A stretch of 32,284 nucleotides of DNA from contig JAEEKZ010000013.1 of the NCBI GenBank assembly GCA_016288635.1, forward strand, positions 1-32,284, read 5' to 3'. The stretch is from Caryophanales bacterium. Its GTDB lineage: Bacteria; Bacillota_I; Bacilli_A; RF39; UBA660. Shown one piece after another: positions 19,193 through 32,283 of this stretch. Within the stretch, counting starts at the first letter, position 1, and each line of letters opens with the position of its first letter. The position numbers and the translations under genes are program-made. The notes below the pieces were generated by a model. It made no database searches and was not told the origin of the DNA. It saw only the letters and a list, made by a program, of their open reading frames with translations.

Positions 19193-20743
19193 TTATGCTT
19201 TTTTAAAATACATTGGTGAATATTTTAAATAATCTCCAACTAGTTCAACTGTAAATGTTGTTTTATAACTTGCCCCATTATTAAACGTTGCATATAATTC
19301 AACTTTCCATTTATCGCCATCTTTGTAATAAGATTCTATCTTAAAATATACATTTTCAGTTTTTCTTCCGACTCCTCCTACAGGAACAACATAATAACCA
19401 TTATTTAGGTATGGGCTTAAATCATAATATATTTCTGAAGCTGGCACTTTTTTTATAAAGTCATCATATTTAGGCATATTATATTCAAAATACTTTTGGT
19501 AATCTTCGTATTGTGTTGAAGAGAATACAGCATGACCCAAATGACCATTTTGGTAAAAATCAAGTACCTCTTTAATTCTTTCACCGTGATAACAGCAGTA
19601 GAAACCTTTTGAAGCATATTCCCAAAAATCTTCACCAGTTTTAATATGTTTGTTGTTATTGCCACTACCCATCTCTGTTGTGCCTCCGCTAGAATATTCA
19701 CATATTGTGGGGTAATCATTTAAAAAATACTCTAAAACCATTAACTCTCTTCTGACTAAACCTTCTTCTCGATCAAGTTCTACTGTATATTCACGACTTC
19801 CTAGATCAAATGATTCTTTGTGGCTTATTTGCCATGTATACTCTAGTTGCAAATTATCTTCATATTCTTCTTTTGTTGTTTCTTCTAAATTTAAATATAC
19901 TTTGTTATTTTCTAACTTGATAGTTCCTTTTCGATAGTAATAATTTTGGGGGTCTACGGCCTGTTTGCAATTACTATAATAGAATACTGCTTGTCCATCA
20001 TAAAAAGGTATCTCTGCGTGAAGTGGCCAATAAATACTTTGCATAGTAAAGTCTATTATATGATTTTCTATATTTCTTATAGACATAAAACCTGGAATTG
20101 AAAGACCCTTTTCACCGCTCCAAACTTTATTAATCCAAACTTTATTAATATATTTACTATAGTCTTCATTTGTTTGTGGGTGCTTTTCTTCATAAATATA
20201 TTCACCTAGTTTATATTTTTCTAAATGTATAAAGTCCGCACTAATATCTAATGACTTGTTATTAGTAAACTCATGTTTCGCTACACTTTCTAACTTTATA
20301 TAGATTTTGTTATCTTTTAATTCTATTGTTCCTTTTCGATAATAGTGCTCTTCATTTGACCTTTCAACTCCGTCGTAGTCTTTGTCTACAAATCCCTCGT
20401 AATAAAAGACTGCCTTTCCATCTTTAAATGGAATAGTTTTGTTTTTTATTCCAGTTTTGTTTTTTATTCCTTTATTCATTCCATAATCAGTCCACGAAAA
20501 AGTAATTTGACCATTATCTATATTTTTTATTTCAACCCATTCAACATATTTGTCGTCAGCCCAATCCTTGTTTATGTATTTGCTATAATTTTCTAAAGAA
20601 TTATCATTTTTACTTCCTACCTGTTTCATATTGTTTGAAATACTATTCTTATAATATAAATACCCAATTACAATACCTGCAACAAATATTATTAATGCTA
20701 TGGCTATAGTTATTAATACATTATTATTTTTCTTTTCTTCCAT
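19193..20743 (-). CDS. Membrane-anchored extracellular protein, paralog A (two modules plus C-terminal domain); start trimmed from 20752
   Basis: MEEKKNNNVLITIAIALIIFVAGIVIGYLYY anchor; two YSKYIN...IPF.DG.AVFYY...YYRKGTI.L..NK.Y modules; C-terminal domain shared with 21931..23010. Confidence 0.85.
   Translation of the reverse strand: MEEKKNNNVLITIAIALIIFVAGIVIGYLYYKNSISNNMKQVGSKNDNSLENYSKYINKDWADDKYVEWVEIKNIDNGQITFSWTDYGMNKGIKNKTGIKNKTIPFKDGKAVFYYEGFVDKDYDGVERSNEEHYYRKGTIELKDNKIYIKLESVAKHEFTNNKSLDISADFIHLEKYKLGEYIYEEKHPQTNEDYSKYINKVWINKVWSGEKGLSIPGFMSIRNIENHIIDFTMQSIYWPLHAEIPFYDGQAVFYYSNCKQAVDPQNYYYRKGTIKLENNKVYLNLEETTKEEYEDNLQLEYTWQISHKESFDLGSREYTVELDREEGLVRRELMVLEYFLNDYPTICEYSSGGTTEMGSGNNNKHIKTGEDFWEYASKGFYCCYHGERIKEVLDFYQNGHLGHAVFSSTQYEDYQKYFEYNMPKYDDFIKKVPASEIYYDLSPYLNNGYYVVPVGGVGRKTENVYFKIESYYKDGDKWKVELYATFNNGASYKTTFTVELVGDYLKYSPMYFKKA
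20119..20148. repeat. 15-bp tandem duplication within paralog A
   Basis: tccaaactttattaa x2 (20119..20133, 20134..20148); encodes INKVWINKVW. Confidence 0.95.
20436..20471. repeat. 18-bp tandem duplication within paralog A
   Basis: gttttgttttttattcc(a/t) x2; encodes GIKNKTGIKNKT. Confidence 0.93.
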
Positions 20744-20821
20744 ATCACACATTCCTCTCTATGCTTTAATAGTACATCATTTATTATTTATTAATCAATA
20801 TAAATATATTACTTGACACAA

Positions 20822-20847
20822 AAAAACTAGATATAAATCTAGTTTTT
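20822..20847 (-). terminator. Terminator, same AAAAACTAGAT stem
   Basis: aaaaactagat-ataa-atctagttttt. Confidence 0.85.
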
Positions 20848-20848
20848 G

Positions 20849-21829
20849 TTATTCTGCATATTCTGGGAAATTTCTTTCTTCATAAATGTATTCAGTTTGA
20901 TCAAAGTAGACGCTTCCTCCGAAGTCATCAGTAACAATCAATGATTCATTACTGTTATATTCTTCTTCTAATACATCGGTTAAGTAAATATGTACTTTAT
21001 CATCTTTTAATTCTATAGTACCCTTTTTAAAATAGATTTCTCCTTCATCTTCTTCGCCGTTATAATTTTGATCATTCCATACTCTGTAGTAGAAATTTAC
21101 TTTACCGTTTTCAAATGGTAATTCTGCATCTAATCCACCTATTCTAAGTATATTCCAAGAAAACTCTATTCTACCCATGTCTAAACTTCTAATATTAAAC
21201 CATTCAGTGTTATATTCATCTGACCAGTTTCTTCCAACATATTTACTATAATTCTCATTACTTGTCTTATCGTATTTTTGATTATATATATATTTATTAT
21301 AATTTAGTTTATCAAAAAAATCTGCTTTATCACTTATGTCTAAACTTATATTATTTTCATATTCATCTTGTGCTACATTACTAATGTCAATAGATACAAA
21401 ATCATCTATCCTGTTATCAACATCTACTGCACCCTCGCTTAACATAATGATTCCTTTCCCATAACGTGGTTCTGTATAGTCGCAGTCATCACAGTCTTTA
21501 CCTGCTTTGTAATAAAATATACCAACATCATCTTTAAACGGAATTGTTGCTGGCTCACTAAAACTTCCTAGTCCTCTTAATTCCCATGTGAAAGTAAGCA
21601 TATCATTTTCAACTTTAATAATATTTACTGTACCTTTTCCATATTTATCTGACCATTCAGCATTGTATTTACTATATTTATTATTTTCTACAGGTTTATT
21701 TTCATTTGGCTTTTTAATATCTGATGGTCTACTTTTATAATATGAATAACCAAGTACAAAACCTAATATAAATATAAGTAATGCAACAATTATGCCCACT
21801 AAAACTTTATTATTTTTCTTTTCTTCCAT
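20849..21829 (-). CDS. Membrane-anchored extracellular protein, paralog B (two modules, no C-terminal domain)
   Basis: MEEKKNNKVLVGIIVALLIFILGFVLGYSYY anchor; modules YSKYNAEWSDKY... and YSKYVGRNWSDEYNTEWFNIRSL...; ends after module 2. Confidence 0.85.
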   Translation of the reverse strand: MEEKKNNKVLVGIIVALLIFILGFVLGYSYYKSRPSDIKKPNENKPVENNKYSKYNAEWSDKYGKGTVNIIKVENDMLTFTWELRGLGSFSEPATIPFKDDVGIFYYKAGKDCDDCDYTEPRYGKGIIMLSEGAVDVDNRIDDFVSIDISNVAQDEYENNISLDISDKADFFDKLNYNKYIYNQKYDKTSNENYSKYVGRNWSDEYNTEWFNIRSLDMGRIEFSWNILRIGGLDAELPFENGKVNFYYRVWNDQNYNGEEDEGEIYFKKGTIELKDDKVHIYLTDVLEEEYNSNESLIVTDDFGGSVYFDQTEYIYEERNFPEYAE

Positions 21830-21906
21830 ATCACACTCACCTTTACTCTTTAATTTTATCTTATTTATTGCTAAATATTCAACTAATAATATGTTACTTT
21901 ACGCAA

Positions 21907-21932
21907 AAAAACTAGATTATTATCTAGTTTTT
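21907..21932 (-). terminator. Terminator, same AAAAACTAGAT stem, overlapping stop codon
   Basis: aaaaactagat-tatt-atctagttttt. Confidence 0.85.
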
Positions 21933-23010
21933 AATTTATTTCTGTGAAATATAATGGTGAATATTTTAAGTAATCTCCAACTAATTCGGCTGTGAATGTT
22001 CCTTTAAATTCCCTGGTTGTTTCTGGCTTTATTTCGACAATTTCTCCATTAATAATATCTGATTGAGCTTCATCAGTTATTGTGATTTTTACTTCTACTT
22101 CATACTCGTTATCATTCTTTTTGATTGATAATATTTCAGACTTTGTTAGATCAGTACCATATCCATCACCGTGGGTTGCTGCGACATAATAGTCTTGGTT
22201 TAAATATGGTATTGTTTCTTTATAAAAAATATTATCACCATCTTTATAATAATCATCTTCTGCAATATCATCATCATATTTTTTTAGTGTATAATTAAAA
22301 TATTTTTGATAATCGCTATATTGAGATGGAGTCATTAATAGATGTCCACCCCATGCATAATCTAAAACATCCACATATTCAACATCATGATAGCAACTAT
22401 AAAAACGTGCTGAAATATATTCCATAAAATCTAATTCTGAATCTTGAACAGCGTCGTTAGGATAACTATACCTTAAGTCTTGTAATTGTATACTGCGCTC
22501 TGATGGTTCTGAATTTTTGCATATTTTGATATTCTCGTTTAGGAAACCTAGTAATACATTGATTTCTTTTTCACCGGGGTCTGTTATAGCATTCAAGTCT
22601 TTAAAATAAACATCTTTTGTTGATATATCATCCGCTTCTTCTGATATTGGTTTTGTTTTAACGAATATTTTATTATCTTTTAATTCAATTGTTGCTTCAG
22701 TATTTTCAAATGGATTAAACACAGCTTTACCATCATTAAAAGGAATGTTTTCGTATTCTCTTCCATGCCATGCTACAAAGCTTATTTTGTCATCTTTTAT
22801 ACTCTTTATTAAAAATGAATCGGAATTATTTTCATTAAATAATTCTTTATTTATATAGTTATCATAATTTTCTTTAACCGGTTTATTGCTTTCTTTTACA
22901 TCGCCATTCGAATATAATGTCCCTAGAAAATATCCCCCTATAAAACATATAATCACTAGAATTATTGGTATTATTAGGTTCTTCTTATTTTCAGTTTTAT
23001 TTTCTTCCAT
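21931..23010 (-). CDS. Membrane-anchored extracellular protein, paralog C (one shortened module plus C-terminal domain); start trimmed from 23019
   Basis: MEENKTENKKNLIIPIILVIICFIGGYFLGTLY anchor; FYSCYH, GGHLLMTPSQYSDYQKYFNYTLKKYDD, FTAELVGDYLKYSPLYF shared with paralog A. Confidence 0.85.
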   Translation of the reverse strand: MEENKTENKKNLIIPIILVIICFIGGYFLGTLYSNGDVKESNKPVKENYDNYINKELFNENNSDSFLIKSIKDDKISFVAWHGREYENIPFNDGKAVFNPFENTEATIELKDNKIFVKTKPISEEADDISTKDVYFKDLNAITDPGEKEINVLLGFLNENIKICKNSEPSERSIQLQDLRYSYPNDAVQDSELDFMEYISARFYSCYHDVEYVDVLDYAWGGHLLMTPSQYSDYQKYFNYTLKKYDDDIAEDDYYKDGDNIFYKETIPYLNQDYYVAATHGDGYGTDLTKSEILSIKKNDNEYEVEVKITITDEAQSDIINGEIVEIKPETTREFKGTFTAELVGDYLKYSPLYFTEIN

Positions 23011-23091
23011 ATCACACACACCTTTACTCTTTAATTCTATCTTATTTAACTATAATTAAGCAATAGTTATTTAAAGTGTTTTACAAAATAA

Positions 23092-26645: not shown

Positions 26646-26669
26646 AAAAGAAGATATTTATCTTCTTTT
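26646..26669 (-). terminator. Intrinsic terminator overlapping stop codon
   Basis: AAAAGAAGAT/ATCTTCTTTT 10-bp stem, T tract. Confidence 0.8.
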
Positions 26670-27477
26670 ATCTTTCTTGTGGTTCTTCATCATAAAATCT
26701 TTTGTTAATTGTTTTTGCTACTGCGTTTAATTCTCCAACACTAAATGATGATCCTTTTAAATATTTTGTTATACGTTCTCTACTTATAATACCTTTATTT
26801 ACTTCTGCGATAGCAAATTCATCACTAGTCATTTGAGAAGACTCTTCATTATCATTTCTTCTTGCTATTATAGCCGCTATTCTATCTCTTAATTCTTGTA
26901 TTATGTTTAAATTATCATTTCTTCTTATAACACGTTTTCTATCGTGTGATACTAGTACTTCTCCACATTTAATTCCTTCTGGAGTTATAGTTATTAGTCT
27001 TGGTAAGAAAAAGCCATTTAATACTTTTTGTTTACCATTTGGGGATTCTAATAACAATTTTAATTCTCCTGGGGTATCAAAAGTACCATTTGTTTTATCT
27101 GAATATCCCTTTAATGAATTCTTATATATTAATTTATATCCTTTTGGTAATAAATAATCTATACCAAAATAAGTTACAGCATTCTCACTATATTCTATTT
27201 CCTTGTCATATCTTGTGTATTTTGTTTTTTCAATATTTATGTCTAATTGTCTTCCATCATCGCTTTGTATTCTTACAAATGAACGAGCATTATCTATAAT
27301 TACACATAAATAGTATTCTTTTCCATTATAAGTTATTTTTTCTTCAAAAGAACCTGGTTCAAGTAATAGAATAGATTTATCTACTAAACTACTAACAACA
27401 TAAATATTTAATAACTCACTTAAATCTTCTTCGGCGTTTTTATTAATATCTTCTTGTGTTATTTTTCCCATAACCAC
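26668..27477 (-). CDS. Unknown predicted cytoplasmic protein, family X paralog 1 (divergent)
   Basis: KITQEDINKNAEEDL; SDDGRQLDINIE; LPKGYKLIY; VLNGFFLPR; FSVGELNAVAKTI, aligning by eye with the two following ORFs. Confidence 0.8.
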   Translation of the reverse strand: MVMGKITQEDINKNAEEDLSELLNIYVVSSLVDKSILLLEPGSFEEKITYNGKEYYLCVIIDNARSFVRIQSDDGRQLDINIEKTKYTRYDKEIEYSENAVTYFGIDYLLPKGYKLIYKNSLKGYSDKTNGTFDTPGELKLLLESPNGKQKVLNGFFLPRLITITPEGIKCGEVLVSHDRKRVIRRNDNLNIIQELRDRIAAIIARRNDNEESSQMTSDEFAIAEVNKGIISRERITKYLKGSSFSVGELNAVAKTINKRFYDEEPQER

Positions 27478-27501
27478 ATACCCCCTTTTGGAATGCTGTT
27501 T

Positions 27502-27530
27502 ATTATATGGTATTACCCCTATTTAGTCAA
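27502..27530 (-). promoter_or_regulatory. Promoter of 26668..27477
   Basis: Minus strand TTGACT-N17-TATAAT. Confidence 0.8.
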
Positions 27531-27534
27531 TAAA

Positions 27535-27564
27535 AAACAAGATAAACAATGGTTTATCTTGTTT
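27535..27564 (-). terminator. Intrinsic terminator overlapping stop codon
   Basis: aaacaagataaac-aatg-gtttatcttgttt, 13-bp stem. Confidence 0.85.
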
Positions 27565-28426
27565 CTATTCCATCTCTAATATCTTTGCCATCTAAACAAT
27601 TAGCAAACATTCTTAGTTCTTCAGAAGTAAAAGTGCTTACATTAATTTTACTAATTAATGCTTCTTTATCTTTTAACATTTGTTGAATTGTTTCTAGCTT
27701 ATCTTCTACTGTTTCTCTTCTATCTTCAATACGTTTTTTTACTTCTTCATTTAATAATCTTGTTAATCTTGTAAGTATTTCATTTTGTGTTTTTGTTGCA
27801 TCATCTTGATTTGCGGTTTTAATTCTACTAAGATCAATCATTGATATACAAACAAGTGGTTCTTTTTTCTTATATCCATTTGATGTTGGCATTGGTTCAT
27901 CGATAATACGATCTGCTTCTTTACTTACTAATGAATCACCACTTAGTATTCCACTTGGAGTTACTGTTGTTCCTCTAGGTAGTAAGAATCCATTTAATAT
28001 TTTTTCTTCTCCTTTAGGACCAACTAGTTTAAATACATATCCATTTGGAGTATTTATTTCTGTTCCGTCATAAGCTACATGTATTAATTTTGATTGATCT
28101 GGTAAATTATAACAGTATTCATAATCAATACCAAGTTCTCCACTCATATCATCATCTATAGTGGAGTGTTTAATATAGTAACATTCTACATTTAAGTCTA
28201 ATGCTCTACCATCTGAACAACATACTCTAATTGTTGCTCCTTTGTAATCTCCTTTACCATAGATTGCATATTCTTTATCACCATATTCAAATGTTTTACC
28301 AATTACATTTCTTGAATTAGTTAATCTAATTGATTTTAATAAATTTTCAATTTCTTCAAGGCTTAAAAGATTATTCAATCCATCTTGAGCTTCTTGATTA
28401 ATTTTTTCTTGTGTTAATTTTTCCAT
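27554..28426 (-). CDS. Unknown predicted cytoplasmic protein, family X paralog 2
   Basis: KLTQEKINQEAQDGL; CSDGRALDLN; LPDQSKLIH; ILNGFLLPRG; C-terminal FTSEELRMFANCLDGKDIRDGIETR. Confidence 0.82.
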   Translation of the reverse strand: MEKLTQEKINQEAQDGLNNLLSLEEIENLLKSIRLTNSRNVIGKTFEYGDKEYAIYGKGDYKGATIRVCCSDGRALDLNVECYYIKHSTIDDDMSGELGIDYEYCYNLPDQSKLIHVAYDGTEINTPNGYVFKLVGPKGEEKILNGFLLPRGTTVTPSGILSGDSLVSKEADRIIDEPMPTSNGYKKKEPLVCISMIDLSRIKTANQDDATKTQNEILTRLTRLLNEEVKKRIEDRRETVEDKLETIQQMLKDKEALISKINVSTFTSEELRMFANCLDGKDIRDGIETR

Positions 28427-28449
28427 ATTTACTCCCCTGACAGTTGCTT

Positions 28450-28478
28450 ATTATATGGTATTGACTTTATTTAGTCAA
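28450..28478 (-). promoter_or_regulatory. Promoter of 27554..28426
   Basis: Minus strand TTGACT-N17-TATAAT; -35 is part of inverted repeat TTGACT-AAATAA-AGTCAA. Confidence 0.8.
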
Positions 28479-28481
28479 TAA

Positions 28482-28504
28482 AAAAGAAGATGTAATCTTC
28501 TTTT
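28482..28504 (-). terminator. Intrinsic terminator overlapping stop codon
   Basis: AAAAGAAGAT/ATCTTCTTTT stem. Confidence 0.8.
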
Positions 28505-29405
28505 ATCTTGCTGAAATTCCGTCTCTAATGTTTCTTCCGCAAAGAACATTATCAATCATTTTTATTTCTCCTTCTGTGAACATAGATTGCTTAATATATG
28601 TAACAAGTTTTTCTCTAGCAGTGTACATTTTATTAAAATCGCTCAATATTCCGGAAACATTTCCTATTCTATTTTTAACACGTCTATTAATTTCTTCTTC
28701 TACTCTTCTTTTTGCTTGCTCAATTAATTGAACTCTTATCTTTTCATTTTTCTTTTCATCAAGACTATCTATTTTATTTATATCACTTAAACGTACTGTA
28801 GCAATTGGATCTTCACTTCTTAACATATATTCTGGAAATGATTCTTGAACAATATGTTTTCTATCTTGAGACACTACAATGACGTGATTACCCATTTCAC
28901 GATTCACAATTCCTACAGTGCTTATCCATGCGCTTTTAGGTAATAAATAACCATTTAATTCTTCATGTGCTTTTTTAGGTATAAATCTTTTAAACTCCAC
29001 TAATGATGGTTTTGTAATACTAGTTAAGCTTTCGCCCCTAGAACTAGAATGTCTTATATTTGATTTATCTGGTAAGTAGCAACAAAATTCATTTGTAATG
29101 AATAGTTCTTCTCGCCAGCCACTCTCTGGATCAGCATATGGTTCCCATGAGTAATAACCATTTAAATCAAGTTTTCTTCCATCAGAGCATTTAACTGTTA
29201 GTTTTGCTTCTTTGTTACTCGCTCTTCCTGTAATGGTATATTGTTTTTCAGTTGCTTCATCTATGAATGACCAATATAAATTATTGCCATTTCCAACTGA
29301 GCATCTTATTGTTTCAAATAATTCTGCTAGAGCATCTGGGCTAAATAAAGCTCTAATTTCATCAATTGCTTTACAATCAATTTCTGCTTGCATTATTTTT
29401 TTCAT
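28503..29405 (-). CDS. Unknown predicted cytoplasmic protein, family X paralog 3
   Basis: KIMQAEIDCKAIDEI; CSDGRKLDLN; LPDKSNIRH; ELNGYLLPKS; C-terminal FTEGEIKMIDNVLCGRNIRDGISAR. Confidence 0.82.
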   Translation of the reverse strand: MKKIMQAEIDCKAIDEIRALFSPDALAELFETIRCSVGNGNNLYWSFIDEATEKQYTITGRASNKEAKLTVKCSDGRKLDLNGYYSWEPYADPESGWREELFITNEFCCYLPDKSNIRHSSSRGESLTSITKPSLVEFKRFIPKKAHEELNGYLLPKSAWISTVGIVNREMGNHVIVVSQDRKHIVQESFPEYMLRSEDPIATVRLSDINKIDSLDEKKNEKIRVQLIEQAKRRVEEEINRRVKNRIGNVSGILSDFNKMYTAREKLVTYIKQSMFTEGEIKMIDNVLCGRNIRDGISAR

Positions 29406-29459: not shown

Positions 29460-29478
29460 GACGTTATTTTGTCTTGTT
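29455..29478 (-). terminator. Intrinsic terminator spanning stop codon of 29464..30255
   Basis: AACAAGAC/GTCTTGTT stem then T tract. Confidence 0.75.
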
Positions 29479-30255
29479 AATTAACTTTTTAATCCCTAAT
29501 GGAATTAGAAAAATGATATTAAATGCAATAAAATATAAAACTAACATCAGTATGGGATTTAAGAATTGTAAATGCGCTTCAGTTAGCTTAGATGCAATAC
29601 CTTCAAAGAATGGTACTCCACCTAATTCTCTATATAACATAAAATCAAATTTAAATATAAAATCTATTGGTATAACTACTAACGATACTATTACATGAAA
29701 TATATAGCCTTTTATTATTGTGGAATAATCCATATCCACATAATTGGTTACTATAAGTAGTAAACCAATAAATACCATTACAAAGTGCCATATCATTGAA
29801 TAAAAGGCTCCAAATGATAGAAATGGATAATACTTTAAACCATTTAAGAATAACATATTAGCTAAACCACCAATAATACATCCTGTTGCTAGCCAACTAT
29901 CTGCATATTTTTTTATTTTACCTTTACAAAATCCTGCGATTGGTCCTGCTAGCATTATAAAGGAACAAGTATCAAGTGGTAATAAACCCCAGTTAAATGA
30001 ACCTGAGTATTTAATATCATATATTGATTCCCAAGTAGTTTTAGTAATATAAAACACTATCATAAATATACCAGTTATTTTTATTATCTTTAGTATCTTT
30101 TCTTTAGGTTGTTTTCTTAATGCTATTAATAATACTACAAGTAATACTATTGATATTCCTAGATATAAATATTGAGGGAATCCACCAAAGTCTTGTCCAG
30201 AATATCCCGGAATATTATATTTATAGTCAAAAAAATTATAATTACCTCTAAACAT
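29464..30255 (-). CDS. YwaF/TMEM164-like (TIGR02206-type) integral membrane protein
   Basis: Multiple hydrophobic segments; WGLLPLDTCSFIMLAGPIAG and SMIWHFVMVFIGLLLI resemble that family; assigned from memory of motifs. Confidence 0.6.
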   Translation of the reverse strand: MFRGNYNFFDYKYNIPGYSGQDFGGFPQYLYLGISIVLLVVLLIALRKQPKEKILKIIKITGIFMIVFYITKTTWESIYDIKYSGSFNWGLLPLDTCSFIMLAGPIAGFCKGKIKKYADSWLATGCIIGGLANMLFLNGLKYYPFLSFGAFYSMIWHFVMVFIGLLLIVTNYVDMDYSTIIKGYIFHVIVSLVVIPIDFIFKFDFMLYRELGGVPFFEGIASKLTEAHLQFLNPILMLVLYFIAFNIIFLIPLGIKKLINKTK

Positions 30256-31008: not shown

Positions 31009-31025
31009 TTCGACATTATTCGACA
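31009..31025. repeat. 17-bp direct repeat copy 1
   Basis: ttcgacattattcgaca, exact match to 31062..31078. Confidence 0.95.
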
Positions 31026-31027
31026 AA

Positions 31028-31056
31028 AAAAGATTAATGTTTTAAATTAATCTTTT
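31028..31056 (-). terminator. Intrinsic terminator between the 17-bp repeats
   Basis: AAAAGATTAA/TTAATCTTTT stem, T tract on minus strand. Confidence 0.75.
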
Positions 31057-31061
31057 ATTAG

Positions 31062-31078
31062 TTCGACATTATTCGACA
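31062..31078. repeat. 17-bp direct repeat copy 2
   Basis: ttcgacattattcgaca. Confidence 0.95.
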
Positions 31079-31080
31079 TT

Positions 31081-32283
31081 TTATTTAGGCCCTCGCATGA
31101 GGCTTTCTACACATTCTAAATCTAATGATTCAAAAGTTTCTCTAATACCTGCACACATACTATTATTAAAATCAGTTAATTGACTTAAATTACCAATTAC
31201 TTTACCATTGTAAGTAAATTTGTTATATACCATTTGAGGTTCACTTGTACACTCCCCTACAACGGTTCTTAAATCGCCTGTTTGCTCATCTTCATCAATT
31301 ATGATGCTTGTATAATACAGTATATAATCATCATAATCGAATATATATTTAACATCTGCAGATTTTGATGATGTTGCTTCGAATCTTATATTCCCAGATA
31401 AATGATTTCCCGTTGAACACTTTGTCACTAGTTCATTTTGTAATTGATTGGTTAATGTATTAGTATTTATTTCATATCCTCTATATCTAAGGGTATTATC
31501 TTTAAGTGATGTATTTATTAATTTATGAGAGCATTCAACGTCTGTATTTTCCAACATAGTTCTTAGTTTAGAACATAGAGAATTATATAATTCATTTAAT
31601 TTTGCATTACTTGTAAGTGGGCTTCTATTAAATGTAAAATCATCTTCAGATAAGTTTGAAGCGCAAATTCCTGTTAGCACCCTTTCATCGCCTGTTTCTG
31701 CATCAGTTTCGATTGATATAGATGTGTTAAATACGGCTCCTGAGTCTTTATCAAAGACGAGTGAAACAAGTGAAGAATTGTTTGATGTAGGTGTTAAATA
31801 TATTATTGAATTATCAGAATAGTCATTATTTACACATTTATTATTTATGCTTTCTTGTGCACTTTGAATCATTTGATCAACATTAACTTCTTTTCCTTTA
31901 TATCTTAGTACAAGATCTGGTTTTGAATCCTCTAATAATTTATTTGTACATGTAGGTGTAAGTGTTCCTAATACTGTTTTTACTTTTGAACACATTGTTC
32001 CAGTAAAATCTGATATTAAATGATTATCAGTTATTTCTTTTCCGTTGTATGAAAAATTATCGAGTTTCATATTTGGATTACCCATGCAATCGCCAAAAGC
32101 GACAGATAATTCCCCATTGGCATCTTTTATCACTGATACTGATGTAAAAATACTAATATCATCTTCTTTATTAAAAGTATAGGTTACATCTGCAGAATTT
32201 TCTGATACTGCTTCAAATATAATATTGGAGTCGTTATTATTACTTGTACATGCATTCTGTAATAAGACTTTTTCATTATTTAA
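31081..32283 (-). CDS. Cys-patterned tandem repeat protein, N-terminally truncated by window edge
   Basis: The open frame continues past track start 32133 (an internal GTG) to the window end, adding LNNEKVLLQNACTSNNNDSNIIFEAVSENSADVTYTFNKEDDISIFTSVS; repeated units with GxC...(M/L)CxxxxxxL...xC....KC. Confidence 0.85.
   Translation of the reverse strand, partial: LNNEKVLLQNACTSNNNDSNIIFEAVSENSADVTYTFNKEDDISIFTSVSVIKDANGELSVAFGDCMGNPNMKLDNFSYNGKEITDNHLISDFTGTMCSKVKTVLGTLTPTCTNKLLEDSKPDLVLRYKGKEVNVDQMIQSAQESINNKCVNNDYSDNSIIYLTPTSNNSSLVSLVFDKDSGAVFNTSISIETDAETGDERVLTGICASNLSEDDFTFNRSPLTSNAKLNELYNSLCSKLRTMLENTDVECSHKLINTSLKDNTLRYRGYEINTNTLTNQLQNELVTKCSTGNHLSGNIRFEATSSKSADVKYIFDYDDYILYYTSIIIDEDEQTGDLRTVVGECTSEPQMVYNKFTYNGKVIGNLSQLTDFNNSMCAGIRETFESLDLECVESLMRGPK

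Follow-up and report, generated by a model that had tools for sequence, protein, structure and literature searches.

PLUNC proteins are described from the mammalian mouth and airways, and the BSP30 genes among them have been described as ruminant-specific. The bovine salivary protein BSP30b (BPIFA2B; PDB 5wd6 and 6o1t) has a weak affinity for oleic acid, emulsifies oil and, among rumen bacteria, reportedly binds only certain ones (PMC6461236). Its structure contains a C72–C229 bond, called unique among PLUNCs, and the conserved PLUNC bond, printed as C172–C225 (PMC6461236). The BSP30b sequence in the PDB has a leucine at position 225 and a cysteine at position 215, so that "C172–C225" is probably a misprint for 215. 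In bacteria, several TULIP families exist, namely YceB, DUF4403, DUF2140, DUF2993, P47 and OrfX2 (PMC6791001). The open-access literature, searched for bacterial homologues and for horizontal transfer of BSP30/PLUNC, yielded no report of such a bacterial protein.

The window, i.e., the whole stretch of DNA analysed here (32,284 nt), is an entire contig (C13) of a 1.14 Mb genome, assembled in 63 contigs and 89.5% complete. The small size, low GC and gene content of this genome, general signs of such a lifestyle, make the source bacterium most likely a gut commensal. An open frame of 400 aa, confirmed as a genuine reading frame, runs on the minus strand from position 32,283 to 31,081 and ends at a TAA codon. 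Its 5′ end is lost because the contig stops there. The 62 remaining contigs were scanned at their ends for the missing part and no sequence overlap was found; a signal-peptide-like stub at the end of contig C8 is a mere candidate for the N-terminus. The features of the locus are as follows.

31081–32283, minus strand: tandem PLUNC/BSP30-like protein gene, of which 400 aa can be read and the 5′ part is cut off by the contig end.
31933–32283, minus strand: Domain A, residues 1–117, with some 20 residues missing at the N-terminus; Cys 12, 66, 98 and 112; Smith–Waterman z 7.3 against BSP30b.
31516–31932, minus strand: Domain B, residues 118–256, complete; Cys 150, 207, 237 and 251; AlphaFold2 pLDDT 83; Smith–Waterman z 11 against BSP30b.
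31084–31515, minus strand: Domain C, residues 257–400, complete and C-terminal; Cys 289, 345, 377 and 391; AlphaFold2 pLDDT 82.
31028–31056, minus strand: possible intrinsic terminator, a stem-loop followed by a T-run just 3′ of the stop codon (weak RNA fold, z −1.3 for the whole stretch).

The terminator-like hairpin is flanked by two copies of a perfect direct repeat, TTCGACATTATTCGACA (positions 31,009–31,025 and 31,062–31,078), of which no further copy was found elsewhere in the assembled genome. Other genes of the window were also noted. Three related genes lie side by side at 26,668–29,405 (269, 290 and 300 aa), and the two that were scanned gave at most a weak DUF7308 match. Three related membrane-anchored proteins without Pfam match (519, 326 and 362 aa) are encoded side by side at 19,193–23,019, adjoined by an ABC transporter/FtsX fusion of 1144 aa. 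A membrane protein at 29,464–30,255 matched TMEM164 (E 8.7e-10), whose family is known chiefly from eukaryotes.

An earlier note on this DNA had described about 2.5 tandem units of 145–150 aa with a regular cysteine pattern and of unknown function. The tandem, cysteine-patterned nature of the protein was borne out, as its 12 cysteines (positions 12, 66, 98, 112, 150, 207, 237, 251, 289, 345, 377 and 391) form three sets of exactly four. The best ungapped self-match was obtained at an offset of 139 residues, with a BLOSUM62 score of 152 compared to 33 ± 6 (maximum 49) in 30 shuffles. The period is therefore 138–140 aa, about 139, shorter than the length first proposed. With the C-terminus taken as the starting point of the phase, the count also had to be raised to nearly three: two complete domains are visible, and a third lacks only some 20 N-terminal residues. 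The units are 30–36% identical to each other and all four cysteines are invariant.

A profile of the three units detected a single relative among 386 genomes of the same bacterial family. This protein, P0002 (427 aa, L005:649-1932), belongs to a second genus and matched with an E-value of 5.2e-6 for one genome, or about 2e-3 over all genomes searched. The gene type was thus present in two of the 386 family genomes, and in one of the four genomes of the P0002 genus. Samples of the class and of the phylum (395 and 392 genomes, respectively) contained no further relative, and plain protein scans of genome contigs, viral contigs, phages and plasmids found none. Such a sparse distribution is as expected for a gained gene. 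Weak profile matches in G269, G331, G389 and G397, and a PF01273 match in G083, were discarded as chance: they had stops in frame, or lay inside or across unrelated genes, oligopeptidase-like and TyrRS-like ones included. The N-terminus of P0002 is signal-peptide-like, and an extracellular-type domain and two transmembrane stretches precede the PLUNC-like domain (start and transmembrane stretches read by eye); judging from sequence, the family is likely located outside the cell. The P0002 contig is bacterial, with genes for Hsp90 and a phosphoketolase beside that of P0002. On the 3′ side (L018 2816-13797; G231 contig 18), the phosphoketolase gene is followed by a type VII secretion-like cluster, whose products are an EssC-like FtsK/SpoIIIE protein of 1519 aa, a protein of 99 aa and two WXG100-like ones of 223 and 227 aa that have no Pfam match.

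By sequence and by fold, the unit is homologous to the mammalian PLUNC proteins and is closest to bovine BSP30b among the solved structures, the comparison set being the PDB sequences alone. The "unknown function" of the earlier note no longer stands by that note's own measure, since a match was found to a known domain, the PLUNC/BPI-fold. BSP30b was the sole family matched in a PDB sequence search with the window protein. The three-unit profile, run against all PDB sequences, matched BSP30b with an E-value of 2.6e-9 (i-Evalue 5.7e-8), and with 2e-14 once P0002 had joined it; the best match other than BSP30b was then latherin, also a PLUNC, with an E-value of 0.58. Single sequences behaved similarly: Domain C alone matched BSP30b (phmmer E 8e-5; i-Evalue 1.7e-4), and BSP30b was the only family matched by P0002 in the PDB (E 8e-6; i-Evalue 9.9e-5). 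In Smith–Waterman comparisons each of the four domains (A, B, C and P0002) reached z values of 7–17 against BSP30b, compared to weak or no similarity to SPLUNC1/BPIFA1/latherin (z −0.4 to 5.5). The identity to BSP30b was 37% for Domain C (over 101 positions), 35% for Domain B, 30% for P0002 and 28% for Domain A, whereas it was 12–25% to the other PLUNCs, and 12–20% to human SPLUNC1, which itself is 25% identical to BSP30b. At 37 positions BSP30b agrees with two or more of the bacterial domains; SPLUNC1 has 10 of these, with gaps at 8 more, some of which come from its partial sequence. The end of Domain C falls within a few residues of the end of the last matched helix of BSP30b. Pfam matches to BOF (a bacterial OB fold) and InlJ_IG were far below cut-off and were rejected.

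The suggestion that four regular cysteines per unit point to disulfides is well supported, as they map one to one on those of BSP30b. The cysteines of the KC, GxC, MC and ExC motifs (C1–C4) align with C72, C172, C215 and C229, respectively (residue numbers counted from the alignments), the C1–C72 match resting on the helix-then-Cys order and on a weak separate match of −0.9 bits. C3 and C4 lie 14 residues apart in each unit, just as they do in BSP30b. C2 and C3, the pair conserved in PLUNCs, occur in each of the three units and also in P0002. C1 and C4, corresponding to the second pair of the BSP30 type, are present in all three units and both absent from P0002, as expected if they are partners. 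The search of the genome, 89.5% complete, gave one thioredoxin and no Thioredoxin_4 (BdbD/DsbA-like) protein.

AlphaFold2 models of domains B and C were built from the three-unit alignment only. The pLDDT was 82 for Domain C (56–82 over five models) and 83 for Domain B (78–83). Both models show the same order of elements: a hairpin, a helix, four strands, a short strand, a long helix and a short helix, the last of which (H133–141 and H132–138) follows the long helix as the C-terminal helix does in BSP30. In Foldseek searches BSP30b was the top match of the Domain C model (prob 1.00). For Domain B, mouse BPIFA1 or human SPLUNC1 accounted for seven of the top eight matches (prob 0.89–0.99, identity 10–12%, E 0.008–0.05). 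The Domain B sequence has no similarity to these proteins (z below 1.5), and its fold match is therefore close to independent evidence. The TM-scores were below 0.5 (0.40–0.47 by query), with an rmsd of about 10 Å or more, and what corresponds to helix alpha4 of BSP30b and to parts of its strands is missing from the units; for these reasons the shortened unit may lack a closed lipid tube and may have lost the lipid pocket.

The protein would be exported and then displayed or released, each domain being held by two disulfides, C1–C4 and C2–C3. As PLUNCs do, each domain would bind a hydrophobic ligand or sit at lipid surfaces. This could serve the uptake of host or dietary fatty acids, or a mimicry of the host protein in competition with the salivary PLUNC coating of the cell; in our analysis lipid or surface binding appears likelier than a pure decoy. 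We tentatively put forward, as quite possible, that gut bacteria took a ruminant salivary PLUNC gene, shrank and repeated it, and display the product at the surface to scavenge lipids or to evade the host BSP30 coating.

Tandem repeats are common in stalks. It is possible, if less likely than not, that the domains derive from a PLUNC and now form a structural spacer or adhesin stalk devoid of lipid binding, which would be consistent with the missing alpha4 stretch and strand parts and with the low TM-scores. The units have nevertheless kept the order of the strands, the two putative disulfides and, at the C-terminus, the helix that in BSP30b is located at the ligand entrance. A spacer role competes with the functional half of our proposal and leaves the origin untouched.

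As to this origin, we propose that the three or more shortened PLUNC domains of the BPIFA2/BSP30 type, encoded in tandem by the gene, were probably acquired from a mammal by horizontal transfer and have a putative lipid or surface role. A mammalian BPIFA2/BSP30 coding sequence would have entered a bacterium of this family, probably via a processed, intron-free copy. It would then have lost some 45–55 residues in the region of its N-terminal helix and strands, multiplied into tandem copies and come to use codons as bacteria do. That the donor was a ruminant is a guess. In the tree, the bacterial domains and BSP30b split from SPLUNC1/BPIFA1/latherin with a support of 99/100, BSP30b lying on a near-zero branch; this tree is unrooted and short, has no outgroup and contains long branches (3.28 for latherin, 2.03 for P0002). 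The pairwise score was 91 between SPLUNC1 and latherin and 62 between BSP30b and latherin. BSP30b is thus farther from latherin than SPLUNC1 is, and is not simply a slow lineage, which argues against the bacterial domains being a mere outgroup. The gene, with a GC content of 29.3% and a GC3 of 15.7%, does not fall outside its contig neighbours in GC or codon usage.

This full adaptation of the codon usage would suit an old bacterial TULIP branch, never taken from an animal, that kept features also kept by BSP30. Bacterial TULIP families exist, as listed above, and a C1–C4-like disulfide is also present in insect Takeout and JHBP (PMC6461236), so that this bond could be ancestral. We consider such a descent unlikely: no bacterial TULIP family with a Pfam model was matched at E-values up to 10, the distribution is very sparse, and the similarity is specific to BSP30b, the other PLUNCs being less similar to the bacterial domains.

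A weak similarity, due to chance or composition and multiplied by three copies, is very improbable. It could account for the Pfam LBP_BPI_CETP (PF01273) match of the whole protein, 31.8 bits for a cut-off of 28.8, a hint on which our case does not rest because it sums three weak, correlated copies (single units gave an E-value of 0.05 at best, or nothing). However, the matches of single domains to BSP30b given above are significant alone, and chance is largely refuted by 5000 shuffled BSP30b sequences, which scored at most 11.8 bits compared to 58 for the real one, and by the Domain B fold search, which agrees without usable sequence similarity. Mammalian DNA contaminating the assembly or joined to the bacterial contig as a chimera, an idea prompted by the position of the gene at a contig end, is just as hard to credit in view of the intron-free 1.2 kb frame, its GC, GC3 and codon usage, the divergence of the tandem copies and the second gene, between bacterial neighbours in another genus.

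The transfer of an abundant salivary defence/surfactant protein from a mammal to a gut bacterium would, if true, be a rare and testable case. Since BSP30b reportedly attaches to certain rumen bacteria and not to others (PMC6461236), its bacterial counterparts offer a direct route to the question of the PLUNC ligand.

Among known systems, the bacterial TULIP families are possible kin at the superfamily level, with no detectable match where a Pfam model exists. Horse latherin (3zpm), the next best profile match, shares the G-x-C and LCP...LD motifs with the units, but at the E-value given above and without C4. SPLUNC1/BPIFA1 (human 4kgh, mouse 6baq) share the fold matched by Domain B and the conserved C2–C3 pair; they differ by their low identity (12–25%) and by the absence of the C1–C4 pair. 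P0002 shares a BSP30b-like domain with C2 and an ELCP helix (C3), the spacing from C2 to the next cysteine being 43; unlike the units, this domain is in single copy, carries an insertion of about 60 residues ahead of that helix and lacks C1 and C4. BSP30b shares with the units the order of strands and helices, all four cysteines, the C-terminal end and the motifs EATSENSA-V, VVGEC-x-NP and C-x8-ESLD-x-EC. The bacterial units are in tandem and shorter, about 139–144 aa compared to some 200 ordered residues in BSP30b, with a C1–C2 gap of 54–57 instead of 100 and a C2–C3 gap of 30–32 instead of 43.
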